NCBI GenBank assembly: GCA_902623995.1
Contig: CACNWE010000003.1
Location: forward strand, 124,001 to 188,000
DNA length: 64,000 nucleotides
Direction of reading: 5' to 3'
From: an uncultured SAR116 cluster alpha proteobacterium
Lineage (GTDB): Bacteria; Pseudomonadota; Alphaproteobacteria; Puniceispirillales; Marisalimonadaceae
Shown here piece after piece: positions 1,701 to 43,286 of the stretch. The translations under genes and the position numbers were made by a program. The notes beneath the pieces were generated by a model. The model was not told the origin of the DNA. It ran no database searches and was given only the letters and a program-made list of their open reading frames with translations. Positions within the stretch are counted from its first letter, which is position 1. Each line of letters begins with the position of its first letter.

Positions 1701-2447
1701 ATGGACTTAAAACAAAAAGTAACTGCATCAACCCAAATGCGTGGTGCAATGGTTTTTGAATTTTTTAGTCCTGGAATACCAATTATATTAAAAAATGCAG
1801 GTTGTGAATTCGTAATTTTTGACATGGAGCATGGAGGTCTTTCTTTAGAACAATTTAAGACCCTATCAATAATATCTAATTCCAATAAAATTGCACCATT
1901 TATTAGAATTCCCGAAATAAAGTATAATTATGTTGCTAGAGCATTAGACTTAGGTGCATCAGGTGTTATGGTTCCAATGGTAAACACACGAGATGACGCA
2001 ATGAAAATTGTACGTTCATCTAAATATCCCCCACAAGGTAAACGAGGAGCAGGCTTTGGTTTTGCGCATGATAATTATTTTAATCAAAACCCTTTATCTT
2101 ATATTGAAAAAGCAAATAATTCTCTAATCAACATTATTCAAATTGAAACAAAACAAGGTTTGGAAAATGTTAAAGAAATTGCTTCAGTAGATGGTGTGGA
2201 TTGTCTATGGGTTGGACATTTTGATTTAACTAATTTTTTAGGAATACCTGGAGATTTTTCTTCAACGATATATCTAGATGCAATTAATGAAATTGTTTTT
2301 GCTGCGAATACTTACAAAAAAAGCCTAGGTATAATGGTTAATAATAAACAAGAATTAGAAACTTATTCCAAACTTGGTTTTAATATGATTGCAGTTGGAA
2401 CAGAAATGAATATTTTATCAAGATCAATTTATCAAATTTTAAATTAA
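1701..2447 (+). CDS. HpcH/HpaI family aldolase
   Basis: A 248-residue class II pyruvate-type aldolase, of the family that cleaves 4-hydroxy-2-keto acids to pyruvate and an aldehyde. The family DMEHG motif is at 41-45 with catalytic His44, substrate Arg69 lies in PFIRIP, and the metal ligands are Glu149 (IQIET) and Asp175 (GHFDLTNFLG). An AGGAG-like site precedes the ATG. Flanked by two 2-hydroxyacid dehydrogenases in the same direction, it could feed or drain a 2-keto-acid pool. A paralogue in a similar setting is at 44440-45198. Confidence 0.85.
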   Translation: MDLKQKVTASTQMRGAMVFEFFSPGIPIILKNAGCEFVIFDMEHGGLSLEQFKTLSIISNSNKIAPFIRIPEIKYNYVARALDLGASGVMVPMVNTRDDAMKIVRSSKYPPQGKRGAGFGFAHDNYFNQNPLSYIEKANNSLINIIQIETKQGLENVKEIASVDGVDCLWVGHFDLTNFLGIPGDFSSTIYLDAINEIVFAANTYKKSLGIMVNNKQELETYSKLGFNMIAVGTEMNILSRSIYQILN

Positions 2448-6978: not shown

Positions 6979-7890
6979 ATGGGAAAAAATATAAATAAAA
7001 AAATTGCAGTTATTGGGGGTAGTGGGTTTTTAGGAAAATCATTGTTGAAATTACTTTTAAATGAAAATGCTGAAATAATTTTATTTACACGAAAAAAAAA
7101 TTATCAAAAAAATTTAAACAAAATTTTTCCTGACAATAATATTAAATGTATTCAGTGGAATATTAACAATTTTAATATCATTGAAGAAAATATTAAAAAT
7201 GTATATACTATAATTAATTTATGTGGTATTCTTTTTGAAAATAAAAGTGGTGATTTTTTTAGAGTACATAAAGAAATTCCTGCTTTTTTGGGAAAAATTT
7301 CTTTAAAACATAAAATAAATACTTTAATTCATGTTTCTGCACTTGGTGTATCTACAAATTCTGAAAGTAAATATTCTAGAAGTAAAGCAGAGGGTGAAAA
7401 CCAATTGCTAGAACATTTTCCTAATGGAAAAATTTTAAGACCTTCATTGCTCTATGGTAAAGGCGATAATTTTTTTGGACAGTTTTCTGACATGACTAAG
7501 ATTTCTCCCTTTTTGCCAGTAATATCTAGATCAACAAAATTCCAACCAGTTTTTGTTGAAGATGTTGCAAAAGCAATAATAAAATTAATAAAAGATAGAA
7601 AAAATAAAAATAATATTTATGAATTAGCAGGAGATACAATCTTCTCTTTTGAAGAACTGTTAAAAATTTTATTAGAAATTAAAAATATTAAAAGGCTTCT
7701 TGTTCCTCTTAATGCAACATTTATGATGATACCTGCATTTTTTTTACAAAATTTACCTAAACCTCCTTTTACAGTAGATCAAATGATACTTCTTAAAACA
7801 GATAATATATTAAAGAACGGTTTACCTGGATTAAAAGATTTAGGTATTAAAATATCTGACATGAAAACTGAGCTTCTTAAGATATATTAA
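6979..7890 (+). CDS. NDUFA9-like NAD(P)-binding protein (complex I-associated SDR family)
   Basis: A 303-residue atypical short-chain dehydrogenase related to the mitochondrial complex I subunit NDUFA9. The N-terminal GGSGFLGKS is the nucleotide-binding loop. STNSESKYSRSKAEGE carries the SxxxY-type region (Tyr then Lys), and ILRPSLLYGKGDNFF is the extended-SDR signature. In Alphaproteobacteria such proteins are annotated as complex I NDUFA9 subunit family and may act in complex I assembly, in ubiquinone synthesis, or neither. It diverges from rnd and converges with uppP with ten bases between the coding ends. Confidence 0.8.
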   Translation: MGKNINKKIAVIGGSGFLGKSLLKLLLNENAEIILFTRKKNYQKNLNKIFPDNNIKCIQWNINNFNIIEENIKNVYTIINLCGILFENKSGDFFRVHKEIPAFLGKISLKHKINTLIHVSALGVSTNSESKYSRSKAEGENQLLEHFPNGKILRPSLLYGKGDNFFGQFSDMTKISPFLPVISRSTKFQPVFVEDVAKAIIKLIKDRKNKNNIYELAGDTIFSFEELLKILLEIKNIKRLLVPLNATFMMIPAFFLQNLPKPPFTVDQMILLKTDNILKNGLPGLKDLGIKISDMKTELLKIY

Positions 7891-7900
7891 TAAAACTAAG

Positions 7901-8692
7901 TTAAATGTAAGCATATATTAAGATCAGAATCCCAAGCATAATTCTATATGCAACGAAAATTTTAAGTGAAGCTTTATTAATCCATTTCATAAATAACGTA
8001 ATTGTAATTAAGGCGAAGCAAAAACTTAAAATAATACCCATAATCATTTCATTATTAAAAAAGAAACCTTTTTCGATGAATAAGTTTATGCTTTCCAAAG
8101 TAGTTGCAGCTATTATAACTGGGATTGATAATAAAAGAGAATATTTAGACGCATCAAAACGGCTGAAACCCATACATAATCCAGCGGTTATAACAATTCC
8201 AGATCTACTGGTTCCAGGAATAATTGCTAGTGTCTGAGCAATGCCAATTACGAGTGCGTCCTTTAAATTCAAACTTTTAAAATATTTTATAACTTTAAGA
8301 TTTCTGTCTGCTATACCTAATAATATTCCAAATGTTAAGGTGGTCCATCCAATGACTTCTAAACTTCTAATTATATCAAAATTATTTATATGAACCAAAA
8401 ATCCAACAATGATAATGGGTATAGTGCTAATTATTAGATTTTTTAAAATAATAAAACCTTCGTTATCTTTTTTTAAAAAAATTGTATCTAAAATTATTTT
8501 TATTAAATCTTTTTTTAAATAATATATTACAGCTAATAAAGACCCAAAGTGAAGAGAAACGTCAAATCCTCTGCTAGATTCTAGATTTAAAAAAAATTCA
8601 GGTATTATGATTAGATGTGCACTAGATGAAATAGGTAAAAATTCTGTAATTCCTTGAATTAATGATAAAATAATTATTATTTCTAAAGCCAT
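7901..8692 (-). CDS. uppP: undecaprenyl-diphosphatase UppP/BacA
   Basis: A 263-residue membrane phosphatase that recycles undecaprenyl diphosphate to the monophosphate carrier for peptidoglycan and surface polysaccharides. Both family signatures are present: QGITEFLPISSSAHL at 13-27 (Glu17 and the triple serine) and PGTSRSG at 159-165 with the catalytic Arg163. The rest is a run of hydrophobic helices ending in a short polar tail. Length is typical. Divergent from the reductase gene at 8808. Confidence 0.93.
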   Translation of the reverse strand: MALEIIIILSLIQGITEFLPISSSAHLIIIPEFFLNLESSRGFDVSLHFGSLLAVIYYLKKDLIKIILDTIFLKKDNEGFIILKNLIISTIPIIIVGFLVHINNFDIIRSLEVIGWTTLTFGILLGIADRNLKVIKYFKSLNLKDALVIGIAQTLAIIPGTSRSGIVITAGLCMGFSRFDASKYSLLLSIPVIIAATTLESINLFIEKGFFFNNEMIMGIILSFCFALITITLFMKWINKASLKIFVAYRIMLGILILIYAYI

Positions 8693-15660: not shown

Positions 15661-17103
15661 ATGGGTAAGGTAACTGGATTTATGGAATTAGACCGAGTTG
15701 AAAGAGATTACGAACCGGTTGAAGACAGGATAAAACATTTTAAAGAATTCCTAGTTCCTCTAGACGAAAAAAAAGTTTCAGAACAAGGTGCTAGATGCAT
15801 GGATTGCGGAATTCCTTATTGTCATCAAGGTTGTCCTGTCAATAATCTAATTCCTGATTGGAATGATTTAATTTATAATAATAGATGGAAAGAAGCTCTT
15901 GATTTACTTCAATCAACGAATAATTTTCCTGAATTTACAGGTAGAATTTGTCCAGCACCTTGTGAAGCATCATGTACTTTGAATATTACAGATAATCCTG
16001 TAGCAATTAAAACAATTGAATGTTCCATTGTAGATAAAGGGTGGGAAGAAGGTTGGATTAAACCAGTGATTAGTAATAAAAAAACTGGTAAGAAAGTTGC
16101 TGTTATTGGTTCTGGACCTTCTGGTTTAGCATGTGCTCAGCAACTAGCTAGAGCAGGTCATACCGTAGTTGTGTTTGAAAAAAATGCGAGAATTGGTGGC
16201 CTTCTTAGAATTGGTATACCTGATTTTAAAATGGAAAAACATCTTATTGATAGAAGGATGTCTCAAATGGAGGCAGAAGGTGTTGAGTTCAGAGTTAATT
16301 CTCACATTGGTAAAGTTATAAAAATAGAAGAATTAAATAAGGATTTTGATGCTATTGCTTTTTGTGGAGGATCAGAAAATCCAAGAGATTTGCCTGTTAA
16401 AGGTAGAGACCTTAAGGGTATTTATTTTGCTATGGAGTTCCTCTCTCAACAAAACGATAGAGTTGCAGGTAATAAAATAGATCCAAAAGTTGAAATCTCA
16501 GCAAAGGGAAAGAATGTTCTCGTAATTGGTGGTGGAGATACTGGATCTGATTGTGTAGGTACTTCTAACCGTCAAGGAGCCAAATCAGTGACGCAACTCG
16601 AATTACTTGATCAGCCACCTGAAAAAGAAAATAAAGCACTTACATGGCCTAATTGGCCTTTAAAACTTAGAACTTCTACATCTCATCAAGAAGGTTGCGA
16701 CAGAAATTGGTCTGTTTTAACAAAATCATTTGACGGTCATGACGGAAAAGTTAACAAACTAAATTGTGTTAAAGTTGCATGGTCAAAAGATAATAATGGA
16801 AAAATGAAAATGAGTGAGGTTACAGGTACTGAATTTTCTTTTAAAGCAGATCTTGTATTGCTTGCTATGGGTTTTGTGCATCCAATTCATGAAGGTTTAA
16901 TAAACAGTTTAGGTGTTAACCTTACACCAACTGGTAATTTAGATGCTAATGACAAAGAATATAAAACATCTATTGATAAATTTTTTGCAGCTGGCGACTC
17001 AAGACGTGGTCAATCATTAGTTGTTTGGGCAATAAGAGAAGGTAGACAATGTGCAAGGTCTATTGATGAGTTTTTAATGGGGAAATCTGAATTGCCAAGC
17101 TAG
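15661..17103 (+). CDS. gltD: glutamate synthase (NADPH) small subunit
   Basis: A 480-residue beta subunit that passes electrons from NADPH through FAD to the large subunit. Cys46, Cys49, Cys54 and Cys58 ([13 protein letters not shown]) with the later CPAPCEASC are the iron-sulfur ligands. [17 protein letters not shown] is the FAD loop and [13 protein letters not shown] the NADPH loop. The start is taken at the ATG at 15661 ([12 protein letters not shown], the family's normal beginning), behind GGAGAA two bases after gltB. A TTG at 15646 would add five residues inside gltB and is unlikely. Confidence 0.96.
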
Positions 17104-17174
17104 GTGAATTTTTAAAATTAACTAAATAACAATCCAGTATTTGGAAGATTTTAAATCGAAATACAAAAATTTAT

Positions 17175-17685
17175 ATGTATATAAATAAATTATCGTCAGA
17201 GAAAAAAAGATTATGATAACATTAAAAATATTTTAAATAAAAATTTTGGTAAAAACAGACACCAAAGGTTAGTGTATTTATATCGCAAAAAATTGCCTAT
17301 TAGGGGTTTGTCATTTGTTTCTTGTTTAGATGTAGATCCATATTCTGTAATTGTTACCATTACTTTTTATAGAACTATAGTTACTAATATTAATTACCTA
17401 CTGCTAGGCCTTTTAGCGGTTAGAAATCCTTTTCAAAGAAAAGGTTTTTGTAAAATACTAGTAAAAAGAGGATTAGAAATTGCTAAGCTAAAAAATGAAA
17501 CTTTATGTTTTGTTTCAGCTAAATATAACTATTATAAAGTATTTGATTTTTTAAAATTAAGTAGTAAAAACTTGGCGATTAATGCAATAGATAATTTAAC
17601 GTATGGTGAACTTCTTGTTAAAGAACTAAAAAAAGATTTTTTAAACTTATTACCTCTAAAGGCACAACTTCTTCCTGAAAAATAA
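17175..17685 (+). pseudogene. GNAT acetyltransferase, frameshifted and degenerate
   Basis: From a GTG at 17272 an open frame encodes 137 residues matching the middle and end of a YhbS-like N-acetyltransferase: RGLSFVS, LLLGLLAVRNPFQRKGF, and the YYKVFDF that follows the catalytic fold. The frame is open back to 17185 with GNAT-like sequence (ILNKNFGKNRHQRLVYLYR) but has no usual start there. An ATG at 17175 lies in another frame and joins it if one A is removed from the seven-A run at 17202-17208, giving a normal 170 or so residues. The acetyl-CoA loop also reads QRKGFC, where the family has QxxGxG. I infer a decaying gene; a sequencing slip in the A run is the alternative. Confidence 0.55.
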
Positions 17686-17693
17686 TTTGAATA

Positions 17694-18362
17694 ATGATTA
17701 CTCTTTATCACTACTACTTATGTTCATCTTCAAGATTTATTAGGCTTATTTTAGAAGAACATAAAATCTTATATAACACTCAGCTGGAAAATTATTGGAA
17801 ACCACAAAAGGATTTTCTACAACTGAATCCAGCTGGTCATTTGCCAGTTTTAATTAATAAAGAAAATTTTCCAGTTATTGGAGCTAATGCTTGTGTTGAT
17901 TACATCAGGGATCTTCAATCAAGATCTAATTTATTTGTTGATGATTATAAAGAGAAAGCTGAAATAAATAGGTTAGTCCATTGGTTTGATGTAATTTTTA
18001 AAAAAGAGGTTTTTGATCCAATTATTTATGAAAAAGTATTTTCAAGGATAGTTGATAATATAACACCTAATAGCGATAATATAAGAGCAGCTCTTCATAA
18101 TTTGGATTTTCACATAAAATATTTCAATTATTTACTAAATAGTAAAAAGTATTTTATTAAAGATGAGTTAACTTATTTAGATTTTTTAGCTGCAGCTAAT
18201 TTTTCAGTTTTGGATTATTTAGGGATATTAAATTTAAAAAATTATGAGAACATAAAAGAATGGTATTTCAAAGTTAAGTCAAGGCCTTCATTTAAAACAT
18301 TGTTAAAAGATCAAATAGTGGGTCTAAATCCCCATGAAAACTATAAAAATATTGATATTTAA
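17694..18362 (+). CDS. glutathione S-transferase family protein
   Basis: A 222-residue GST-fold protein. The thioredoxin-like N-terminal domain starts with LYHYYLCSSSRFIRLILEE; Ser/Cys near residues 9-11 would contact glutathione. NPAGHLPVLINKENFPVIG holds the cis-proline (HLPVL), and GANACVDYI takes the place of the usual E-S pair. The helical C-terminal domain includes LTYLDFLAAANFSVLDYL, the conserved capping motif. Substrate unknown. It abuts the convergent hydrolase gene with no base between the coding ends. Confidence 0.78.
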   Translation: MITLYHYYLCSSSRFIRLILEEHKILYNTQLENYWKPQKDFLQLNPAGHLPVLINKENFPVIGANACVDYIRDLQSRSNLFVDDYKEKAEINRLVHWFDVIFKKEVFDPIIYEKVFSRIVDNITPNSDNIRAALHNLDFHIKYFNYLLNSKKYFIKDELTYLDFLAAANFSVLDYLGILNLKNYENIKEWYFKVKSRPSFKTLLKDQIVGLNPHENYKNIDI

Positions 18363-19109
18363 TTAAATTTTTGTTTTTATTTCTTCAATAATATTTGTGA
18401 TGCTTCTAAGTTGATGTATATCGGATAACCTATGTCCAGCATCTTTTTCTAATAATAATTTTATATCATTAGTTCCTTTAAATGTTTTGATAATTTTTAA
18501 ACTTAAATCGAATGGCACGGCATCATCGGCCATACCATGGTATAAGTAGATAGGACCATTAAAATATATACTGTCTGATAAAGTAAGGTTTTTAAGACTA
18601 TCTTTAATTAATGTGTATGAAAAATCAATTTTTGATCCATCTTCATATTTTACACTTGTCTTTCTATTTTTTATTAATTCTCTTTTCTCATCCCTAGTCA
18701 TTTTATTCCATATCAATAGTTTAGGGAAATCTGGAGCAGGTGCTAGACCTATTAATGCTGAAATCTTATGTGGAATGCGTTTTGCCAACATTAGCATAAT
18801 CCAGGCACCCATTGATGATCCAATTAAAATCTGCTTGTCTTTTGTTTTTTCATTGATTATGTACTCAGCATCTTGATACCAATCAGAAAAACAAGTTGTG
18901 TCAATTGTTCCTGACGATTGACCATGTCCTGAATAATCAAATCTTAAATAGCCATGATTATTATCTTTTGCCCATTTTTCAATATATAATGCTTTTTTAC
19001 CTTGCATATCTGAATTAAAACCACTTAAAAATACAATACCTATATTTTTTCCTGTTAATTGTTTATATGCAATAATGTTATTATCAGATCTATTAATAAA
19101 TTTAGTCAT
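18363..19109 (-). CDS. alpha/beta hydrolase
   Basis: A 248-residue serine hydrolase of the alpha/beta fold. The nucleophile elbow is GSSMG with Ser99, the acid is Asp195 or Asp196 in YHGMADDAVP, and the base is His226 in KDAGHRLSD. FLSGFNSD near 28-35 forms the oxyanion region. No signal peptide, so cytoplasmic. It resembles small carboxylesterases and mammalian ABHD10-like enzymes; the substrate is not predictable. It diverges from the glycosyltransferase gene with 32 bases between starts. Confidence 0.82.
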   Translation of the reverse strand: MTKFINRSDNNIIAYKQLTGKNIGIVFLSGFNSDMQGKKALYIEKWAKDNNHGYLRFDYSGHGQSSGTIDTTCFSDWYQDAEYIINEKTKDKQILIGSSMGAWIMLMLAKRIPHKISALIGLAPAPDFPKLLIWNKMTRDEKRELIKNRKTSVKYEDGSKIDFSYTLIKDSLKNLTLSDSIYFNGPIYLYHGMADDAVPFDLSLKIIKTFKGTNDIKLLLEKDAGHRLSDIHQLRSITNIIEEIKTKI

Positions 19110-19141
19110 TTACAAATCCGTTTGGTTAAAGGTTAATTAAA

Positions 19142-33412: not shown

Positions 33413-33488
33413 GCCCGGGTAGCTCAGTAGGTAGAGCAGAGGACTGAAAATCCTCGTGTCGGTGGTTCGAATCCGCCCCCGGGCACCA
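33413..33488 (+). tRNA. tRNA-Phe (anticodon GAA)
   Basis: A 76-base cloverleaf with encoded CCA. The acceptor stem GCCCGGG pairs with CCCGGGC. The anticodon stem GAGGA/TCCTC encloses CTGAAAA, anticodon GAA. This is the only complete copy in the window; its 3' 51 bases recur at 36181-36231 and 40603-40654, which marks it as an integration target. Confidence 0.97.
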
Positions 33489-33600
33489 TATTTTTCTAGA
33501 TCAGACTTCAATAAACCGTCAATCACACCTCTTAGATTAATACAATTAGCGTCTCAATTTATAGCTGATTTGTCAAATAATTGTGACAGAGGTGTGACCG
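33489..33600 (+). repeat. left-arm repeat of element A
   Basis: About 110 bases after tRNA-Phe recur after the second tRNA fragment (36232-36341). Nineteen bases, AAACCGTCAATCACACCTC, are identical, then CTCAATTTAT, TTTGTCAAA and the closing GAGGTGTGAC are shared at matching distances. TCACACCTC and GAGGTGTGA are inverted to each other. Also TGTGACAGAGGTGTGACCGG here resembles TGTGACGGAGGTGTGACGG at the far right end (40533-40551). The pattern fits integrase arm-binding sites. Confidence 0.6.
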
Positions 33601-33888
33601 GGAATAATAATTGTTTTTGTTTTTATTAAGTAAATTCAGAAACTTAAAAAAAAATAAGAAATTTCTTGATAAGGTCTTTTCGAACGATTCTGGACCTAAT
33701 ATTGTAATTTAATCAAAAAAAATTTATGCAAGTTATGATAATTATAAAATATTAAAAATTATTTTTTGAACAAGTTAGTAAACAAGTTTTTATTATTAAA
33801 GACATAATCAGGTATTTTACTGTACAAATTTTTCTGGCATTATATTCTTTAATTACGTTTATGGTGTGATTATTGCAATTGGCTAAAT

Positions 33889-34074
33889 ATGCTTATAAAA
33901 GAACATAAAATGTTGACGAAAAAATCTTTAGATCAGGCTCTTATGAAGTCAAAATCAAATTTAGAGAATAATAGGTTTGTTGAGTTTAAAAGATTATATC
34001 AAACAAGCCCAATAGCTTTTCTTAAAAATAAAAGTGCACAGCAGAAATTAGTTTCTTTATACAAAATAAAGTAA
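33889..34074 (+). pseudogene. severed N-terminal part of the TPR-methyltransferase protein
   Basis: A 61-residue open frame, MLIKEHKMLTKKSLDQALMK onward, rich in Lys, Leu and Ser and helical in character. It ends in a TAA at 34072-34074 that lies in the same frame as the following gene, with only three codons between the stop and that gene's ATG. Related TPR-methyltransferases often have an N-terminal helical stretch of this type. I infer a nonsense mutation splitting one gene; a separate small protein is the alternative. Confidence 0.4.
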
Positions 34075-34083
34075 TGCGGTGAT

Positions 34084-35952
34084 ATGCAAAATCCACCTCA
34101 AGAAACAATAAAATACCTAATTAGTCTTTATAATAAAGGTCAATTTTTATTTGCTTTTCAACAAGCTAAAACTCTTACTGAAAAATATCCAAAGTCATTT
34201 ATGATTTGGAATATACTTGGAGTATCTTCTTTTCAAATAGGGATATTGGAGGAAGCTATTAAATCTTATAAACAAGCACTTTTACTTAAACCTAATTATG
34301 CTGAAGTTTACAACAACATTGGTGTTGCTTTCAAAGAACAAGGTAATATTGAAAAAGCAATCGAGGCTTTTAATAAATGCATTTCAATCAAACCTGATCA
34401 CACTGCTGCAAACATAAATATAGGCGATGCTCTTAAAAATATAATTTTTGAAACACAAAATCCTATTTTGCAAAATACAATGATCTCATTACTTGATCAA
34501 AAAACATATGTGAGACCAAAAAACATTGCCAAAACTGTTATCAGTTTTTTAAAGTTAGATCCTAAATTAAAAAAATATCTTCAAAGTAACTCTTTCGTAC
34601 AAAAAATTTCTTTGAAGAATATTATTAGTGATCTATCTGAGCTAACTTTACTCCTTAAGTTAATGAGTGTCTGCCCAGTTATAGATATTGAGATAGAAAA
34701 ATTACTTACGTTTATTAGATCAAGATTGTTATTATCAATTTCATCTTTCAGAGGTAACAATGAAGTAATAAAGTTTCAGTCCGCATTAGCTCTACAGTGC
34801 TTTAACAATGAGTATATATATATACAGAGTGAAGAAGAAAACAAAGCTCTTGAAAACTTAGAGATGGTTGTAAGACTTGCGCTAAATAATAATGAACAAC
34901 TAAGTCCACAATATATACTATGCTTAGCTTGTTATAAATCTCTTAATAATTATGCATGGAGTAGTAACCTTATTATTACTACTGAAATTCAAGAAGTGTT
35001 TAATAGACAGGTTGTTGAACCAACTGAAGAAACTAAATTAAGATCAACAATACCTATTTTGAAAGAAATTAAAAATGTGGTTTCTTCACAAGTGAAAGAG
35101 CAATATGAAGCAAAACCTTATCCAAGGTGGATAAATTTAGGACTACCATTCAAACCTGAAACAATTTTTAAGGTTATTAATGATATGAATCTGAAGATAT
35201 TTGACGATAGGATCAAAGAAGTTTATACACCAAGTATTTTGATAGCTGGCTGTGGCACAGGTCAACATTCAATTGAGACAACATCAAGGTTTAAAGATTC
35301 GAAAGTCTTGGGTATTGATCTTAGTATGTCAAGTCTTAGTTATGCCAAACGTAAAAGTATTGAGTTAAATATCCAAAATATAGATTATATGCAAGCTGAT
35401 ATATTAGACCTTGGCAAACTCGATAAACAGTTTGATATAATAGAATGTGTTGGGGTACTTCATCACATGAGTGAACCTGTTGAAGGCTGGAAAGCATTAA
35501 GAAATTGTCTAAAGCCGGGTGGTCTAATGAAGATTGGTTTATATAGCGAACTAGCCAGACAAGACATTGTGAAAATCAGGAATGAAATTAGTAATAAGAG
35601 CTTTGGATCAAGCGATTTTGAATTGAAATCATTTAGAAATAAACTTATAAACTCAGATAATAATCACTATAAACTAATATTAAATTCTTACGATTTTTAC
35701 AGCCTTAGTGCAGTAAAGGATTTACTTTTTCATGAAAAAGAGCACAGGTTCACTATTGATCAAATACAAAAATGCTTGTCTCAGTTAGAGCTGAGGTTCT
35801 GTGGATTTGAGGATAAAAAAATAGTTTCAGAATTTAAACAAACAAACGCTAACATGGAAGATTGTTATGTTCTTGATAAATGGAAAATTTATGAGGAAGC
35901 CAATCCTCAAGTATTTTCAGGAATGTACCAATTTTGGTGTCAAAAGATGTAA
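34084..35952 (+). CDS. TPR repeat protein with SAM-dependent methyltransferase domain
   Basis: A 622-residue protein. Residues about 1-130 are tetratricopeptide repeats (NILGVSSFQIGILEEAIKSY, NNIGVAFKEQGNIEKAIEAF). A helical middle section of about 200 residues follows. A class I methyltransferase domain starts at about 385: ILIAGCGTGQHS is motif I, VLGIDLSMSSL motif II, ADILDL and DIIECVGVLHHM the later motifs, and NCLKPGGLMKIGLY the end of the Rossmann sheet. QYEAKPYPRWINLGLP ahead of it is typical of this marine-bacterial family. Acceptor unknown; glycans, small molecules or proteins are possible. Sole cargo of element A. Confidence 0.8.
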   Translation: MQNPPQETIKYLISLYNKGQFLFAFQQAKTLTEKYPKSFMIWNILGVSSFQIGILEEAIKSYKQALLLKPNYAEVYNNIGVAFKEQGNIEKAIEAFNKCISIKPDHTAANINIGDALKNIIFETQNPILQNTMISLLDQKTYVRPKNIAKTVISFLKLDPKLKKYLQSNSFVQKISLKNIISDLSELTLLLKLMSVCPVIDIEIEKLLTFIRSRLLLSISSFRGNNEVIKFQSALALQCFNNEYIYIQSEEENKALENLEMVVRLALNNNEQLSPQYILCLACYKSLNNYAWSSNLIITTEIQEVFNRQVVEPTEETKLRSTIPILKEIKNVVSSQVKEQYEAKPYPRWINLGLPFKPETIFKVINDMNLKIFDDRIKEVYTPSILIAGCGTGQHSIETTSRFKDSKVLGIDLSMSSLSYAKRKSIELNIQNIDYMQADILDLGKLDKQFDIIECVGVLHHMSEPVEGWKALRNCLKPGGLMKIGLYSELARQDIVKIRNEISNKSFGSSDFELKSFRNKLINSDNNHYKLILNSYDFYSLSAVKDLLFHEKEHRFTIDQIQKCLSQLELRFCGFEDKKIVSEFKQTNANMEDCYVLDKWKIYEEANPQVFSGMYQFWCQKM

Positions 35953-36118
35953 TAAATACAAAAGCTACTTCATATCACTAACTAATAAATAAATTGTAAA
36001 GAAGTTTTTTAAATTTTAAGCTGATCTTAAATCTTTATTATATCCAGGAATTTATATTAATCATATTTTCCTTTATTTCATATGTGCTTAATAAAGTTTA
36101 ATATTATTTAATCAAAAT

Positions 36119-36341
36119 ATCCTCTTTGTTATAGAGTTGTGTCATAAGAGCAATAAAACTTATAAAAATTGTACAAAAGAAGAGGACTGAAAATCCTCGT
36201 GTTGGTGGTTCAAATCCGCCCCCGGGCATCATGTTTTCTTTTTAAAGACTAAACAAACCGTCAATCACACCTCATTGGTTAATACCTACAGAATCTCAAT
36301 TTATGACTTATTTGTCAAAATAATTATTACTGAGGTGTGAC
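36119..36341 (+). repeat. internal att junction with tRNA-Phe 3' fragment (copy 2)
   Basis: 36181-36231 repeats the last 51 bases of tRNA-Phe with three substitutions (one in the CCA end, now TCA), and lacks the 5' half. To its left are TTGTACAA (36169-36176) and a decayed arm motif at 36119-36143 that matches 40525-40549 at about two thirds of positions. To its right the left-arm repeat restarts, with AAACCGTCAATCACACCTC at 36255-36273 and GAGGTGTGAC at 36332-36341. Between 36342 and 36532 I see nothing else but the promoter region of the next operon. Confidence 0.75.
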
Positions 36342-36532
36342 TAGATTTTATAATTATAACAGCTTTTTTATTAGTGATTTCAAAGTTTAAAATGTTAATT
36401 TTTTAATTTAAAAGATAACTTTTTAGGCATATTAGAACTTTAATTTGATAATTTATAAACACTTCATAAATAATCTTGATGTAGGTATTTTAAGGATTAT
36501 TCTTTTTAGATTGTATTATTAGGAAATTAAGC

Positions 36533-37957
36533 ATGACTTATTTTACAAAAACGTATGACGAGGCTTTTATAAATCAAGACTCTATAAGAACCAATTACAA
36601 AAAGTTTATTAGTTGGTATAAAAATCAAGATGATAATGAATTAACAAAAATAAATTCTGATGCAATAAAATTTTTTGAAAATACAGGTGTATCATTTAAA
36701 GTTTATTCCAGTGAAAAAAAAGAAAATCTAATACCATTTGATATAATCCCAAGAATAATAAACTCCAAGGAATGGGATAAATTGGTTAAAGGGATAACAC
36801 AGAGGGTTTTAGCTATTAATTTTTTTCTTACTGATATTTATAGTCAACAAGAGATAATAAAAAATGGTGTGATACCTGTTAATTTAATTCAAAATAATCC
36901 CGCTTTTTTGAAGCAGATGATAGGATTTACTCCTCCAAACAAGACATACAATCATATCTCTGGTATAGATTTAATTAAAACAAATTCAGACAATTTTTTT
37001 GTATTAGAAGATAATGTTAGAGTCCCATCTGGAGCTTCTTATATGATAGAAAATAGGGATACTATGATAAAATTATTTCCTGACCTAATCTCAAGATATA
37101 AAGTATCTGAAAATAGAAACTATACCAAATACTTATCTGAAATTTTAAAGAAGTCTTCACCAAAAAAAACAAAAATAAACCCAAACATAGTTTTGCTAAC
37201 TCCTGGAATATATAATTCTGCGTTTTTTGAACATGCTTTTTTGGCAGATAAGTTAGGTGTTGAATTAGTAGAAGGTAAGGATCTTCGTGTAATTAATAAA
37301 TATTTAAATATGAAAACTATAGATGGTTGGAAAAAAGTAGATGTAATTTATAGAAGAATAGATGATATCTTTTTAGATCCGTTATCATTTAAAGAAGATA
37401 GTTTTTTAGGTGTTCCAGGTTTAATGGAGGTATACAGAAATAAAAACGTTACGATAGCAAATGCTCCTGGCACAGGCATTTCAGACGATAAATCAATTTA
37501 TTCTTATATTCCAGACATTATTAAGTTTTATTTGGGTCAAAAACCAATTTTAAAAAATGTAAAAACATTCAAGTGTGGTATAAAAGATGAATTGAAATAT
37601 GTATTAGAAAATTTAAATAAATTAGTCGTTAAAGAAGTTCACGGCTCAGGTGGTTATGGGATGCTAGTAGGGCCACTAGCAAGCAAGATTGAAATATCAA
37701 AATTTAAAAATAAAATTAAAAAAAATCCTTACAATTATATTGCTCAACCAACTTTATCTCTATCTACTTGTCCTATTTATACAAAAAAAGGTCTAACTCC
37801 TAGACACGTTGACCTTAGATGTTTTGCATTATTAGCACAAGAAAAGGTTACTGTTACAAGTGGTGGCCTCACCAGAGTTGCTCTAAAGAAAGGATCTCTT
37901 GTTGTTAACTCCAGTCAAGGTGGTGGTACTAAAGATACTTGGATATTGAGTTCATAA
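36533..37957 (+). CDS. circularly permuted ATP-grasp protein
   Basis: A 474-residue member of the circularly permuted ATP-grasp family (DUF404/DUF407 type), predicted to form amide or peptide bonds using ATP. SYMIENRDTM near 166-175 and the preceding LEDNVRVPSGAS are hallmark segments, LGVELVEGKDL lies mid-protein, and VVKEVHGSGGYGMLVGPLA is the ATP-binding loop. The C-terminal VTSGGLTRVALKKGSLVVN with SQGGGTKDTW is diagnostic. First gene of a tight four-gene operon; comparative genomics (Iyer and colleagues on amidoligases) links this set to peptide tagging or synthesis. Substrate unknown. Confidence 0.9.
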   Translation: MTYFTKTYDEAFINQDSIRTNYKKFISWYKNQDDNELTKINSDAIKFFENTGVSFKVYSSEKKENLIPFDIIPRIINSKEWDKLVKGITQRVLAINFFLTDIYSQQEIIKNGVIPVNLIQNNPAFLKQMIGFTPPNKTYNHISGIDLIKTNSDNFFVLEDNVRVPSGASYMIENRDTMIKLFPDLISRYKVSENRNYTKYLSEILKKSSPKKTKINPNIVLLTPGIYNSAFFEHAFLADKLGVELVEGKDLRVINKYLNMKTIDGWKKVDVIYRRIDDIFLDPLSFKEDSFLGVPGLMEVYRNKNVTIANAPGTGISDDKSIYSYIPDIIKFYLGQKPILKNVKTFKCGIKDELKYVLENLNKLVVKEVHGSGGYGMLVGPLASKIEISKFKNKIKKNPYNYIAQPTLSLSTCPIYTKKGLTPRHVDLRCFALLAQEKVTVTSGGLTRVALKKGSLVVNSSQGGGTKDTWILSS

Positions 37958-38883
37958 TGCTAGGAAGTACAGCAGATTCTTTATTTTGGATGTTTAGATA
38001 TATTGAGAGAGTTGAAAATACATTGTGTATGATTGAGAGTGGTTTCCAATTGTATCTTTTATCCTCTAGTAATTTGAATAATGAATGGGATGCAATTTTA
38101 AGAACTAATTCTATAAGGCATCATTTTTTAAAGAAAAATAACTCTTTAGATAGTCTTAATATAATTAACTTCATGTTAAAAGATCCTAAGAATTTTAATA
38201 ATATTTTAATACTTATTGAAAAAGCTAGAGAAAATGCACGAAGATCAAGAGGATCAATTACATCAGAAGTTTGGGAGGCGATAAATACTTGTTGGTTATA
38301 TTTAAATGAAGAACTTAATAAAAAAATAAATGAAAGTAAAATTCAAACAATTATAAAAAACACAAGAGAAAAAATTGCTCTGATTTTTGGCTTTTTAGAA
38401 AGAGGCATGTTGAAAAATGAAATTTTAAATTTCTGCTATTTAGGCACATTTATTGAGAGATTTGATAATACTGTAAGAATTTTGAATACAAGATATTATC
38501 TTCTATTAGACGAAAAAAAAATTAGATTTGAGGGTTACGATAATTTTCAATTAGAAATGATTTTGAGAAGTATTTCTTCATACAGATCATTTATGTGGAA
38601 AAATCAAAATGAAATTAAAGCTAATAAAGTCTCTTATTTTTTAATATCAGATAAAGATATGCCTAAATCACTAATATTTTGTGTTAATGAAACTATTAAA
38701 AATTTAAGGTCAATTCATAAAAAAAAATTTTCAAAAAATAAAAGTTACCTAAATGCTCTAAATATTCAAAAAAAAATTAAACAAAAAAATAGAAATTTAA
38801 ATAATTATTCATTTTTAAATAGTCTATTTCAATTAAATATCACATTAGCTGCAAATATAGAGGAAGAATTTAATTTCCAGTAA
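37957..38883 (+). CDS. alpha-E domain protein
   Basis: A 308-residue all-helical alpha-E (DUF403) protein, with no known catalytic activity, always near circularly permuted ATP-grasp genes. The N-terminus MLGSTADSLFWMFRYIERVENT is the family hallmark, and ENARRSRGSITSEVWEAINT and LGTFIERFDNTVRILNTRYY are the other conserved helices. The start is set at the ATG at 37957, which overlaps the previous stop by one base (TAATG); an upstream in-frame codon at 37939 would add six non-family residues. It may be an adaptor for the ATP-grasp enzyme. Confidence 0.9.
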   Translation: MLGSTADSLFWMFRYIERVENTLCMIESGFQLYLLSSSNLNNEWDAILRTNSIRHHFLKKNNSLDSLNIINFMLKDPKNFNNILILIEKARENARRSRGSITSEVWEAINTCWLYLNEELNKKINESKIQTIIKNTREKIALIFGFLERGMLKNEILNFCYLGTFIERFDNTVRILNTRYYLLLDEKKIRFEGYDNFQLEMILRSISSYRSFMWKNQNEIKANKVSYFLISDKDMPKSLIFCVNETIKNLRSIHKKKFSKNKSYLNALNIQKKIKQKNRNLNNYSFLNSLFQLNITLAANIEEEFNFQ

Positions 38884-38887
38884 TAGT

Positions 38888-39697
38888 ATGATTTTAAAAA
38901 TAACACAAAAAATTGTATATGAAATTGATGGAACAATTAATTATGGATTTAATAAGTTACTTTTAACTCCTCAAAGTAATGAAAGTCAAAAAATTTTAAA
39001 TTGGAAAATTTATATTCAGGGTGGAAGTAAGGAACTTAATTCTATAGATCAATTTGGTAATCTAATAGATTTGGTTAGTATACAAAATGACACTAAAAAA
39101 ATTGAATACAATATTCTTGGTAAGGTTGAAACAAAATCTAACTTTGGAATAAAAGAAATCTCAAAAAAAGATCTTCCAATTTGGTGTTACATTGATAAAA
39201 CTTACCTTACGAAACCTGGTGAATATCTATCAAAATTTTACAAAGAAAACATTTTGAATTTCGAGGATTTGATAGGAAGTCTTCATGAACTCTCATCTAA
39301 AATAAAATCTAAAATTAAATATAAAAAAGGAAAAACAGATTATAAAACAACAGCTGAAGATGCATTTAAAAAAGGGTTTGGTGTTTGTCAGGATCACACT
39401 CACATTTTTTTATCTATAGTCCGAATGAATAATCTGCCTTGTAGATATGTTAGTGGATTATTTAAACCGATACAAGATACTCATAATCTTTCCATGCATG
39501 CTTGGGCCGAAGTATTTATAGAAAATCTTGGTTGGATAGGCTTTGATATATCTAATGGTATTTCTCCAGATGGCAGATATGTAGAAATAGCAAAAGGTTT
39601 CGATTATAATGATGTGGTACCTATAAAAGGTATTATAAATGGATATTTTATTGAAAATCAAAATTTAGAATTATCAATTGATATTTTAAATCAATAA
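38888..39697 (+). CDS. transglutaminase-like cysteine protease
   Basis: A 269-residue protein with the bacterial transglutaminase N-terminal beta domain (about 1-90) and a transglutaminase-like catalytic domain. The triad is Cys167 (KGFGVCQDHTH), His204 (SMHAWAEVF) and Asp220 (WIGFDISNG). The end, RYVEIAKGFDYNDVVPIKG, is the family's conserved tail. No signal peptide, so cytoplasmic. In this operon it is thought to cleave or form isopeptide bonds on the product of the ATP-grasp enzyme. Four bases after the alpha-E gene. Confidence 0.9.
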   Translation: MILKITQKIVYEIDGTINYGFNKLLLTPQSNESQKILNWKIYIQGGSKELNSIDQFGNLIDLVSIQNDTKKIEYNILGKVETKSNFGIKEISKKDLPIWCYIDKTYLTKPGEYLSKFYKENILNFEDLIGSLHELSSKIKSKIKYKKGKTDYKTTAEDAFKKGFGVCQDHTHIFLSIVRMNNLPCRYVSGLFKPIQDTHNLSMHAWAEVFIENLGWIGFDISNGISPDGRYVEIAKGFDYNDVVPIKGIINGYFIENQNLELSIDILNQ

Positions 39698-39709
39698 TCA
39701 AGGTGCGTA

Positions 39710-40444
39710 ATGACTTATTGTGTAGGATTAAAATTAAATCAAGGTTTAGTATTCATGTCAGATACTTTAACTAATGCGGGTATAGACAATGTTAATACAA
39801 ATAAAAAAATGTTTTTTTGGCTGAATAAAAACGAAAGAAGTGTAGTTTTGTTAACTTCTGGAAATTTAGCCACATCCCAGGCTACTATCAATCTTATAAA
39901 TGAAGCTATTGATAACCCCAATAATGATAACGATAATATTCTTAAAACTAAATCAATGTTTCAAGTTGCAAGAATTGTTGGAAAAATTTTAAGGAACATA
40001 TCTAATGAATACTCTTCTGATGGTCAAGCAGGTGAAAATCCATATTCCTCTACTTTAATTTTAGGTGGTCAAATTGCAGGTCAAGAACATAGGTTATTTT
40101 TAATATATCCTGAGGGTAACTTTATAGAAGCATCTGAAGATCAATCTTTTTTTCAAATTGGAGAAACAAAATATGGCAAACCAATTATAGTTAGAGCACT
40201 AGAAAAAGACTCAAACTTCGGTGATGCAATAAAACTACTTTTAGTATCATTTGATAGTACTATGAAGGCTAATGTTTCAGTAGGCATGCCAATAGATGTC
40301 TGTACCTTAAAAAAAGATGATCTTGAATTGAATAATCAAATAAGGTTTGAAAAAAATGATCCTTATTTTGAAAAAATATCAAATAGTTGGGGAGAGGCTC
40401 TAAAAAAAAGTATAAAAGAGTTACCACCATTTGATTTTCAATAA
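39710..40444 (+). CDS. Anbu, proteasome-related N-terminal nucleophile hydrolase
   Basis: A 244-residue member of the proteasome beta-subunit superfamily of the Anbu (ancestral beta subunit) group. MTYCVGLKLNQGLVFMSDTL is the Anbu N-terminus; Thr2 becomes the nucleophile once Met is removed, with Asp18 and the nearby Lys (NKKMFFW) at the active site. The strand GENPYSSTLILGGQIAGQEH and the C-terminal region match. Known Anbu proteins form helical or ring-like assemblies and their substrates are unknown. Last gene of the operon; its end abuts the integrase stub. Confidence 0.92.
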   Translation: MTYCVGLKLNQGLVFMSDTLTNAGIDNVNTNKKMFFWLNKNERSVVLLTSGNLATSQATINLINEAIDNPNNDNDNILKTKSMFQVARIVGKILRNISNEYSSDGQAGENPYSSTLILGGQIAGQEHRLFLIYPEGNFIEASEDQSFFQIGETKYGKPIIVRALEKDSNFGDAIKLLLVSFDSTMKANVSVGMPIDVCTLKKDDLELNNQIRFEKNDPYFEKISNSWGEALKKSIKELPPFDFQ

Positions 40445-40519
40445 TTTAGATATTGATACTATTTTTCTATTTCTTACTTGAACTCGCCATAGCCCATTTC
40501 TTTTCCTAAATGACGCCAT
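40421..40519 (-). pseudogene. N-terminal stub of a tyrosine integrase
   Basis: From the ATG at 40519 the minus strand reads MASFRKRNGLWRVQVRN then RKIVSISK, which matches the N-terminal arm-binding domain of phage-type tyrosine integrases (MAS-x-RKR-x-G-x-W-x-V-x-V, then S-K-T-F). Homology breaks after SISK at about 40445, and the remaining seven codons run antisense through the 3' end of the Anbu gene to a TAA. It lies 84 bases from the tRNA-Phe fragment, pointing into element B, where an integrase would be expected. Confidence 0.6.
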
Positions 40520-40524
40520 TTTAC

Positions 40525-40654
40525 ATCCTCCGTGTGACGGAGGTGTGACGGTGGTAATATAAATTTTGTTAAATCTTTAATATACCTACGTAGATTTGTA
40601 CAAGAGCAGAGAACTAAAAATCCTCGTGTTGGTGGTTCGAATCCGCCCCCGGCA
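40525..40654 (+). repeat. right att end with tRNA-Phe 3' fragment (copy 3)
   Basis: 40603-40654 repeats the 3' part of tRNA-Phe with a few substitutions, loss of one G in the final GGGCA, and no CCA end. TTGTACAA precedes it at 40596-40603, exactly as in copy 2. At 40525-40549 is the arm motif, which contains CCTCCGT-GTG-ACGGAGG (a seven-pair hairpin, 40527-40543) and the direct repeat GTGTGACGG (40532-40540 and 40543-40551). No left-arm repeat follows. Confidence 0.75.
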
Positions 40655-40725
40655 TGACGTTTAATATTCAAATTTTTAAATTACATTAATTGCTTTTTAA
40701 TATAAATATAATGGTTCATTTTTAA

Positions 40726-41862
40726 TTAAACATTAAACAGTTTGTCTTGGAGATCAATTATTGGATCATTCCAGAAGACCTGACGTTTAAGTTTTTCAAA
40801 ATCTGTTTCAAATACCATTGCCATTGCTGAGCAATATATTGAACGTGCATCTGTTGTAGAATTAAGATCCTGACCTTCAAACAAGTTTTTACGATTTAGT
40901 CCTGGCCAATCAGAATATACTTGAGCCTTTTTCACTAACCCACCAATCATCAATACAGCGGTACCATAACCATGTTCGGTACCATTACCACCATTTTGTT
41001 CAATCTTCCTGCCAAACTCTGTTAAAGTAACAATCAATGTATCTTCATATGTCGGACCTAGATTTTTTTGTAAAGTTCCAAAAATTTTATCTAAATTATA
41101 CAATTTATCAGCATGCTCACCATTTGCCCCCCCTTGTGCTGCATGAGTATCGAACCCGTTCATATCAAAAACTGCAACTCGTGGACCATTCGCTTTAGAT
41201 AAAGCCTTTGCAGCCGTTCCAGCAAGTTTATGGGCTTTCCTGGATCCTTTTCCAGAAAGCATTGAATATGGACGCATAATAACTCTTTGAATTGTGGATC
41301 TTAGGTTGCTATCCTCAGGGTAGGTTGAAGCTACTCGTTTCATAATATCAGGTGAAGGTGTTGATAATTTTGTTGGAAAATAGTTATCTAAATTTGCTTT
41401 ACTTCTGAGAATTAATGGCATAGGCAAAGCTATTGCCAAACCATCTAAATTAGCTGTTTCCATTCCGCGGCCAAGCCAACCTGTATATTCAGCAAAAGGC
41501 TTATGACCACCACTTTCCATTAAATCTTGTCCTTCAAAATGTGAACGCATCGTATAAGGTATATTTGTAGCATGTACAATTGCTGCTTTACCTTGTTTCC
41601 AGGCATTATGAAAATTTTTTAAAGAGGGATGTAATGCAAAATCAGATGTAAGCGGCAAAGTTTTTTTAACTAGAATGTCAGGACGAAATTTTTCAAGTTT
41701 AGGATCAATTGGTGGTACAGCTGACAAACCATCCATCCCACCACGGAGAGAAATAACAACAAGATTACGCTTTTTTTTCTTTTCAGCTAATGCTGAAAAT
41801 AATGGGGAACCTAGAAGAGTTACTGTTATTGAACCTGTTAGAAAAGTACGTCTATTTATCAT
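40726..41862 (-). CDS. DUF1501 family protein, Tat-exported
   Basis: A 378-residue protein of the sulfatase-like DUF1501 family, of unknown function. The N-terminus MINRRTFLTGSITVTLLGSP is a twin-arginine signal followed by a hydrophobic stretch and an Ala-rich cleavage region. LVVISLRGGMDGLSAVPP opens the mature domain, and FDMNGFDTHAAQGG and LTEFGRKIEQNGGNGTEHG carry likely metal-binding residues. It overlaps the DUF1800 gene start by four bases (ATGA) and is translated after it; the two families occur together widely. Confidence 0.88.
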   Translation of the reverse strand: MINRRTFLTGSITVTLLGSPLFSALAEKKKKRNLVVISLRGGMDGLSAVPPIDPKLEKFRPDILVKKTLPLTSDFALHPSLKNFHNAWKQGKAAIVHATNIPYTMRSHFEGQDLMESGGHKPFAEYTGWLGRGMETANLDGLAIALPMPLILRSKANLDNYFPTKLSTPSPDIMKRVASTYPEDSNLRSTIQRVIMRPYSMLSGKGSRKAHKLAGTAAKALSKANGPRVAVFDMNGFDTHAAQGGANGEHADKLYNLDKIFGTLQKNLGPTYEDTLIVTLTEFGRKIEQNGGNGTEHGYGTAVLMIGGLVKKAQVYSDWPGLNRKNLFEGQDLNSTTDARSIYCSAMAMVFETDFEKLKRQVFWNDPIIDLQDKLFNV

Positions 41863-43286
41863 GTTTTTAACATCCTATAACTCGGGAAAATTAATTGCAT
41901 CTTAGTTGAAGATGATTTAACTCCATCAATAAGGGCCTTTATTTCTTCTGGATCATCAAAATTTTTTTCTATCATTTCTCCAAAATTTTTGAGGGCAAAT
42001 CTGCGCTGAGCTATTTCTTTGGGAGCAGACATTCTTCTAATGAGTAATTCAGGCGATATCCAGTCTGACTCCAAATCAGAAAAACCATTTGGTTGTATAG
42101 GCCTATAGGGTTCATATCCAATTTCTTTCATAAAAAAACGAGGTCTTCGTTGATGATTGTTAGGTTTAATTTTGAAGTTATATTTCATTTCGTCTGCCTG
42201 TAGCGGCCAACTGCCACCTACCATGTGAACCATTTGTAACATCCATATTTCCGGATTTTGAAATTTAGCTTTACTGTCAGCATGGTCATAAACAACCTGT
42301 AGCAAAGCCTTATGAATGATTGGTAGATTGCCATCAGATTTTTCCCATGCAGAAATAATTGGTGCTATCATATCTTCTGTTGGATTGTCAGTAAGGAAAT
42401 GTCGACACAGCTTGAAAGCAATAAAGCGTCTTGTCTCAGGATGATTTGATAAATCTTTCAATACATCAATTAATTTGTTTTTTGGTGAAAGGCCTCGTTG
42501 TTTGTATTTCTTTCCTAATACTTTATGATTACCAGGTTCATGCTTTTTATAGTTAAATCTTACAGGGTTACATTCTTTTCTTTTTTTTGTGTGTTCATGT
42601 TCCCACCCTGCCATAACATAAGAAAGATGTATCACATCTTCTTGACTATATCCTGCTGAAGGAGAAACTGTATGTAATTCTAGTAACTCACGAGCATGAT
42701 TTTCGTTTACTGTAGCGAGTTTTCCTCTTTTTCTACGATTTTTTCCCCACTCAGAATGTGGTCCTATAGATTCTGAATTATCAAGATTATGAATCATTGA
42801 CCAACCTAGAGTTGCTTCCTTTAAAAGTGTTTCAAATGAACCACACATGTTAGTTCTAATAGTTTCACGATGATAAGGACCAGTTGTAAATTGTGGCATT
42901 GCATCTTTATCAATAATTGCAAAATGATTGCACCAGAAAAACCATAGTCTTTCAAAAACTGGAGATTTACTTTTTACTGCGGTATTTTGTCGAATACAAA
43001 TTTCTAGATTTTCAAAGTATTGCTGTCCGACCTTATAACGAAGTTTATTTTTAGCTTTTTTGTAAGCTTGACGATTTTCTTTATACTTTTTTCTTAATAT
43101 TTCTCGGTCTGTATATACCCACTCTGCATAATGGTTAAGCATTTCTTCACCACTACGTATCTGTGTATCCCAAATCAAGGGTGGCACTTCGTCAACTTGA
43201 TTTTGTGCCCAAGAAATAGGATTCTCTGGAACCACTTCATCTGGACCAATACCAAAACCTACTTTTCGAAAGAAATTTTTTTTCAT
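41859..43286 (-). CDS. DUF1800 family protein
   Basis: A 475-residue protein of the DUF1800 family, unknown function, paired with DUF1501 in many bacteria. ERLWFFWCNHFAI near 120-132, NENHARELLELHTV, and DVLKDLSNHPETRRFIAFKLCRHF are the conserved family segments. No convincing signal peptide is seen at this start, although many homologues have none either. The surroundings (Tat-exported partner) suggest an extracytoplasmic or envelope role. Divergent from the dehydrogenase at 43447. Confidence 0.86.
   Translation of the reverse strand: MKKNFFRKVGFGIGPDEVVPENPISWAQNQVDEVPPLIWDTQIRSGEEMLNHYAEWVYTDREILRKKYKENRQAYKKAKNKLRYKVGQQYFENLEICIRQNTAVKSKSPVFERLWFFWCNHFAIIDKDAMPQFTTGPYHRETIRTNMCGSFETLLKEATLGWSMIHNLDNSESIGPHSEWGKNRRKRGKLATVNENHARELLELHTVSPSAGYSQEDVIHLSYVMAGWEHEHTKKRKECNPVRFNYKKHEPGNHKVLGKKYKQRGLSPKNKLIDVLKDLSNHPETRRFIAFKLCRHFLTDNPTEDMIAPIISAWEKSDGNLPIIHKALLQVVYDHADSKAKFQNPEIWMLQMVHMVGGSWPLQADEMKYNFKIKPNNHQRRPRFFMKEIGYEPYRPIQPNGFSDLESDWISPELLIRRMSAPKEIAQRRFALKNFGEMIEKNFDDPEEIKALIDGVKSSSTKMQLIFPSYRMLKT

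Follow-up and report, generated by a model that had tools for sequence, protein, structure and literature searches.

The 64,000-nt window analysed here (contig CACNWE010000003.1, positions 124,001 to 188,000, of an uncultured SAR116 cluster alphaproteobacterium; G+C ∼30%) carries two cassettes, A (2.7 kb) and B (4.4 kb), in tandem behind its tRNA-Phe gene. They are read, with a probability of roughly three quarters, as integrase-deleted members of one tRNA-Phe element family that were added successively at the tRNA gene and that, in the manner of cis-mobilizable elements (CIMEs), are moved by an integrase acting in trans or exchanged by way of the ends they have kept. The observations behind this reading are an empty site in a relative, three copies of the tRNA core, a left-end module common to both cassettes, an integrase stub in cassette B, an integrase-bearing element with similar ends in genome G032, and the position of cassette B beside the tRNA in two relatives.

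tRNA genes were called with ARAGORN and open reading frames (ORFs) were assigned to families via Pfam and PHROG. Relatives are denoted by genome (G), contig (C) and locus (L) numbers, G000 being the window's own genome (2.08 Mb, 48 contigs, 89% complete). Feature coordinates are collected in Table 1.

The tRNA-Phe site and the cassette ends

A preliminary description of the window had placed two degenerate elements at tRNA-Phe in the order attL, A, attachment (att) junction, B, attR, and this order holds. The last 51 bases of the tRNA gene recur at the A/B junction with the three substitutions described. The third copy, proposed to start at 40603, is real; it is identical to the gene at 44 of 47 positions, followed by a one-base deletion after which the match continues. 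Neither copy has the 5′ part of the gene, as had been claimed. When the whole genome was searched with a 220-nt query of tRNA and arm, the copies were returned with E values of 1.6e-37 and 1.6e-15. The sole further match besides the query itself, on contig C19 (E 2.4e-13, 83 nt of tRNA gene, 80%), looks like another tRNA gene. The motif TTGTACAA was confirmed ahead of both copies and occurs nowhere else between 33400 and 40700.

An empty site, for which a comparison with relatives had been suggested, was found in G023. A single tRNA-Phe is followed there directly by the DUF1501 region. The left flank and tRNA align to the window over 146 columns and, from AGAGCAGAGGACTG onward, copy 3 and the right flank align over 317 columns. 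The tRNA also stands directly before DUF1501 in the gene maps of G018, G033 and G037; because their right-flank alignments cover just the tRNA part and a few bases, the empty site is claimed from G023.

A left arm of ∼110 nt follows both the intact tRNA and copy 2. The repeat with 19 identical bases noted earlier is longer than was claimed, being 81% identical over 68 nt at 33510 and 36252 (19-nt identical run included) and ending in GAGGTGTGAC; a sequence search gave no arm match after copy 3, again as described. Left ends were compared with the G032 left end in 22 cases and right ends in 16 cases, with shuffles as control. The G020 left end equals that of G032 over all 400 nt compared. All 12 informative left ends, with various cargo (G000 A and B, G039, G028, G034, G009, G006, G014, G035 twice, G025 and G007), lose homology at nt 109-110, the end of GAGGTGTGAC. 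Two further left ends match partially (G018, G017) and seven score at about shuffle level (G003, G012, G050, G057, G052, G065, G061). Right ends scored above shuffles in 9 of 16 cases, the other seven being cassette A, G025, G007, G050, G055, G056 and G040. An exact left-arm pattern was too strict, matching in 4/101 genomes (reversed control, 0/101 rows).

Cassette B keeps the start of an integrase gene at its right end. The stub terminates at the base adjoining the Anbu stop codon, its region is identical at 115 of 129 nt to the start of the G032 integrase gene, and the similarity extends over the final 16 nt of the Anbu gene. The first 130 nt of the G032 integrase contig have a single match in the window's genome (40429-40557, E 1.8e-43). 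Six ORFs were scanned in the interval 33489 to 40602 and gave no integrase family; a whole-genome search likewise placed no Phage_integrase there. The word 'degenerate' is apt in that A and B have no integrase. Both left ends and the right end of B, by contrast, are conserved and are shared as modules with the integrase-bearing element of G032.

The integrase stub measures ∼30 codons in the Anbu cassettes of G000, G006, G014 and G011, 26 codons in G039, 14 in G012, 8 in G036, and 6 and 0 in two G035 cassettes. A C-terminal integrase piece follows the 14-codon stub of G012, which amounts to an internal deletion. Hence the junction differs between cargoes and is common to copies of one cargo. 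The left arms of two tandem G035 cassettes with different cargo are 95% identical. Cassettes with the same cargo have left arms 82-85%, spacers 89-93% and genes 95-98% identical; given the difference between arms and genes, the ends seem to have had a history apart from that of the cargo.

The four genes of cassette B (ATP-grasp, Alpha-E, transglutaminase and Anbu) form an operon that is named in the available text of PMC5666114. In G006 and G014 cassette B adjoins the full tRNA and cassette A is absent, which fits a later entry of A at the tRNA.

Integrase-bearing elements and cargo at tRNA-Phe

In G032, one contig carries the left arm, two unknown genes, and AlpA-like and Prim-Pol ORFs, the identity of which was taken from clustering with scanned G020 and G034 proteins. 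A second contig starts within a right end 93% identical to that of the window and bears a Phage_integrase of 315-329 aa. The two contigs would together make up one element. A complete arrangement of this kind was found in G065, where a 34-kb element lies between tRNA-Phe and a partial copy (G065:C4:82524-118700; L088, L089), with an AlpA-like ORF and a Prim-Pol/DUF5906 protein on the left side and a 319-aa Phage_integrase on the right. The AlpA-like ORF has no Pfam match of its own and clusters with that of G020, which has one. Relaxase, conjugation and capsid families were absent from 30 of the 31 ORFs of the G065 element (ORF 16258-19113 lay outside the scan). The same element also encodes MzaB, D and E-like defence proteins, a C5 methyltransferase, Vsr and a restriction helicase.

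An integrase of this type adjoins a tRNA-Phe fragment (98%) in G057. Integrases 62-68% identical to that of G065 adjoin a tRNA fragment with, by eye, a CAT anticodon in G003, G013, G014, G019, G038, G039 and G050, and more distant relatives adjoin tRNA-Val, -Arg, -Pro and -Met. In a listing of integrase places in 25 genomes, G031 has the only one inside a fetched tRNA-Phe interval. This protein combines an N-terminal DUF6538 with Phage_integrase; it belongs to a different integrase family, and in G063 and G069 proteins that cluster with it likewise stand directly behind tRNA-Phe (L054, L081 and L082 for the three genomes). At least two integrase families therefore seem to use tRNA-Phe. The DUF6538 integrase was dropped as the driver of the window's cassettes; the window stub matches the other type.

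C-terminal stubs of the integrase family to which the window stub belongs (approximately residues 273-318, identity up to 93%) were met repeatedly, each lacking the remaining gene, and start near the same codon. At L203 the stop region of the stub and the anticodon core of tRNA-fMet are reverse complements, and an fMet-type arm comes next; at L213 and L215 the stop regions are nearly complementary to that core in the same way.

A total of 54 tRNA-Phe loci were mapped and oriented, with the full gene in 51. At least one extra same-strand 3′ fragment was present at 13 of these 51 (G000, G039, G006, G035, G025, G007, G012, G040, G050, G055, G056, G058, G065), a count that excludes 16-nt matches, antisense matches and a 5′ fragment in G021. 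The genes between tRNA-Phe and the next conserved gene vary by genome and comprise TPR-methyltransferases, the Anbu operon and others, among them an epoxide hydrolase (G052) and an Nmad3-domain protein (G014), so that the search for other cargo at this tRNA gave a positive result. The proposal that the cassettes hold non-core genes within a core gene order is borne out for the varying cargo but not fully for the flank: in G039 (L034) the DUF1501/DUF1800 pair is itself enclosed by tRNA copies. This pair (window 40726-43286) is inverted or missing in some relatives and may be older cargo.

The Anbu operon at other sites

The ATP-grasp gene was found in 21 of 61 genomes. The operon is at tRNA-Phe in G000, G006 and G014, and elsewhere, with mostly different neighbours, in G003 (L171), G009 (L170), G012 (L186), G020 (L169) and G032 (L167), whose ATP-grasp proteins are 94-95% identical. 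Directly behind Anbu, each of those five loci has a 25-codon stub with an internal stop. Among the eight non-Phe loci tested, these five have an integrase-start stub, which matches the G013-type integrase (0/500 shuffles reach the score, each) and hardly the G032-type. In L170 and L186 the operon stands between partial copies of what we take, from the anticodon arm, to be tRNA-fMet, and in L169 such a copy lies on one side. The G006 stub is chimeric, with the first ∼30 nt of the Phe type and the remainder like that of L167. More distant relatives of the operon (L177-L185, 72-82%) stand in largely conserved contexts, and no match to tRNA-Phe or to the window's arms was found there.

At fourfold sites (genes with <20 sites left out), operon identity within the trio G000, G006 and G014 is 88.0-90.7%, against 61.6-71.4% for the pooled flanking core, and the operon was also above the core mean in the nine other pairs tested. 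The upstream core of G000 is closest to G009 (90.4%); its operon is closest to G014 (96.2%), with G032 at 96.0%. In a tree of the operon, the three copies at tRNA-Phe group together (support 1.000), a clade absent from the upstream core tree.

The simplest account would be that the integrase was cut once and that the cassette then reached two kinds of site, where stub and arms were replaced by the local type. In the G006 stub such an exchange seems visible, its start being of the Phe type and the remainder like that of L167. With two integrase types among the stubs, it is the shared junction on which an integrase loss ahead of the spread depends.

When the genus was queried with the fMet 3′ end and spacer, matches were returned in 36 of 40 genomes (weak matches to other tRNAs included). 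Many genomes have several matches a few kb apart, with up to 8 in G035, and tRNA-fMet looks like a second cassette hotspot. In L172-L174, at ∼7600-8000, the Anbu operon follows a gene resembling the G052 epoxide hydrolase with, by eye, a partial left-arm relic between them; perhaps two former cassettes have fused.

Mechanism, alternatives and comparison with known systems

A parent of the proposed family would have an AlpA-like gene and a Prim-Pol/D5 protein on the left and a tyrosine integrase on the right. The integrase would bind the GTGTGAC repeats in both ends and recombine within the tRNA-Phe anticodon arm. Supplied in trans, such an enzyme would also excise and insert cassettes that lack the gene, and newer cassettes would enter at the restored tRNA, shifting older ones rightward. 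The Anbu cassette would have switched between Phe and fMet sites by exchanging ends, in G006 visibly within the integrase stub.

Three tRNA copies on one strand could also result from simple duplication of tRNA-Phe, the intervening genes then being ordinary chromosome. With copies 2 and 3 lacking the 5′ part, a single tRNA and continuous flank in G023, common arms and an integrase stub, this explanation has next to no probability. The small distance of copy 2 from the gene, only 3 bases, would suit one single element in which copy 2 was made by later internal rearrangement. This is held to be very improbable, as B alone adjoins the tRNA in G006 and G014 and each cassette has a left end of its own. 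A more serious alternative is that the cassettes are dead relics, with integrases lost in place, ends that are fossils and cargo shared by homologous recombination between islands. The variation of stub lengths between cargoes, the decayed right end of A, the chimeric G006 stub together with the different stub types at the two kinds of site, and the absence of the cognate integrase from G000 all agree with relics. Anbu abuts an integrase stub at five places as well as at tRNA-Phe, which is easier to explain by a single truncation of the integrase gene that preceded the spread, and the near-identical left arms of the differently loaded G035 cassettes also speak against decay in place. So does the conservation of arm motifs in cargo-only cassettes: variable columns made up 6/21 in the motifs and 58/88 elsewhere in nine cargo-only arms (P 0.002), and 2/21 and 28/88 in three Anbu arms (P 0.03), the motifs having been picked post hoc. 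On balance the relic explanation is rated as rather doubtful.

Several points weigh against integrase-deleted cassettes moved in trans. The arm motifs were selected after inspection of the data, and they are conserved in three primase-bearing arms too (0/21 against 24/88 variable columns). Cassette A has no recognisable integrase stub; its right end has decayed beyond recognition by alignment (score 26, shuffle maximum 35) and gave no alignment to the integrase gene. A TPR-methyltransferase ORF stands near the tRNA in G015 without arm or tRNA copy, and no tRNA copy was detectable behind cassette B in G014. The ends of G065 have diverged, with 75% identity to the window over 83 nt at the right end and about shuffle level against G032 at the left end. 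G000, at 89% completeness, gave no match to the integrase. Enclosure of the DUF1501/DUF1800 pair in G039 counts against its role as core flank. With regard to the Anbu operon, the stub is of the G032 type at tRNA-Phe and of the G013 type elsewhere, no stub was found behind Anbu in three of the eight non-Phe loci (L172-L174), and no fMet fragment was found in the few hundred bases beside the operon in L167 and L171. Single core genes can equal the operon at fourfold sites (one gene at 88%, G000 against G006), and codon bias may raise the operon's value. Movement of the cassettes is itself inferred from sequence, and no excision, circle or integration event was observed. Homologous recombination between islands could shift cargo without an integrase, which the chimeric G006 stub fits; it may act alongside site-specific movement in trans.

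P4-like satellites have an AlpA-like gene and a primase-helicase near a tRNA attachment site, and the parent-like elements share this gene layout. Viral contigs contained one integrase relative at 25% identity and no close one, and no match to a right-arm pattern, a weak negative; viral packaging was dropped as a candidate. The 44 tRNA-core matches in these contigs are presumed to be ordinary tRNA-Phe sequence, and a DUF1501 query from G039, which found no relative there, is little informative.

Other systems are compared as described in the available portions of the papers cited. CIMEs are decayed derivatives that keep att sites, have no recombination genes, bear cargo and occur in tandem (PMC7563491). 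The window cassettes likewise keep att sites (three cores, the empty site, the left arms of A and B and the right arm of B; the right arm of A is decayed) and have no recombination gene of their own, just the 25-codon stub; they would work like a CIME. They differ in retaining the integrase 5′ stub with the right end and in having the same cargo at two kinds of site. 'CIME-like' is used because no conjugative or mobilizable parent was found, the parent-like G065 element having no relaxase or conjugation family in the ORFs scanned. Tycheposons are marine, tRNA-anchored, cargo-carrying elements with a tyrosine recombinase (PMC10872708, PMC11389934). Marine host, tRNA anchor, cargo and, in the parent-like elements, a tyrosine recombinase are shared; the cassettes are small and have no recombinase. 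In the additive flexible genomic islands of Alteromonas (PMC4119200) and Methylophilaceae (PMC10872708), cassettes are added at a tRNA and tRNA 3′ ends are repeated, as here; conserved arms and integrase stubs are not described for them in those portions. Clusters of attC sites lacking integron-integrases (CALINs) are integron cassette arrays movable in trans (PMC11389934). They too are integrase-less, but in the window it is tRNA cores that are repeated, and the related integrases target tRNA. No account of the present cassettes was found in the available text of the literature on tRNA islands, CIMEs, tycheposons, VEIMEs, truncated integrases and the Anbu operon.

A broader possibility, put forward tentatively and at below even odds, is that integrase-less cassettes form a pool in SAR116 bacteria, as an att-based equivalent of miniature inverted-repeat transposable elements (MITEs) or CALINs. 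Such cassettes would have conserved ends and swappable cargo, would be moved in trans by a few integrase-bearing elements and would change tRNA target by exchange of ends through the stub, making the Anbu operon nomadic. In ocean bacteria tRNA loci are places of variable gene content, and movement of small integrase-less islands is hard to test. Here movement in trans is directly testable because the ends, an integrase-bearing relative, an empty site and a stub of the lost enzyme have all been identified. Stripped cassettes may still spread, and the Anbu operon was seen at several kinds of site among close relatives. A 5′ integrase stub set against a cargo gene is a tell-tale by which similar cassettes can be detected elsewhere.

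Table 1. Positions of features in the window and, where a locus or genome is named, in relatives.
Feature	Position	Strand	Basis
tRNA-Phe(GAA), intact; 3′ part is attL core	33413..33488	+	ARAGORN, empty-site alignment
Left end (arm) of A, inverted repeat TCACACCTC...GAGGTGTGAC	33489..33598	+	Matches G032 left end at 97/108; similarity ends at nt 109
ORF of 61 aa without Pfam or PHROG family	33889..34074	+	Family scans
A cargo: TPR and S-adenosylmethionine (SAM) methyltransferase protein, 622 aa	34084..35952	+	Pfam
A right end, decayed, TTGTACAA at 36169-36176	36110..36180	+	By eye; alignment not significant
Partial tRNA-Phe copy 2, A/B junction	36181..36231	+	48/51 identical
Left end of B	36232..36341	+	Matches G032 left end at 84/98; similarity ends at nt 110
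B cargo: circularly permuted ATP-grasp	36533..37957	+	Pfam CP_ATPgrasp_2, E 7.3e-155
B cargo: Alpha-E protein	37960..38883	+	Pfam, E 3.3e-63
B cargo: transglutaminase-like	38888..39697	+	Pfam Transglut_core, E 1.3e-18
B cargo: Anbu, proteasome-family protease	39710..40444	+	Pfam Proteasome; solved Anbu chains 5loy (E 1e-71), 5nyj (E 4.6e-67)
Integrase stub, first 25 codons of tyrosine recombinase gene	40445..40519	-	23/25 residues as in G032
B right arm: GTGTGAC at 40532-40538 and 40543-40549, TTGTACAA at 40596-40603	40520..40602	+	Alignment
Partial tRNA-Phe copy 3, attR, remnant of original target	40603..40652	+	Genome search, G023 alignment
Original right flank of empty site, into DUF1501	40653..40919	+	Alignment to G023
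C-terminal integrase stubs	L202 3317-3454, 13615-13752; L203 4942-5079		
C-terminal integrase stubs	L213 ∼2063-2191; L214 ∼2455-2589; L215 ∼2074-2193		
fMet match examples	G035:C4; G012:C1:629991-635869; G018:C2; G022:C1

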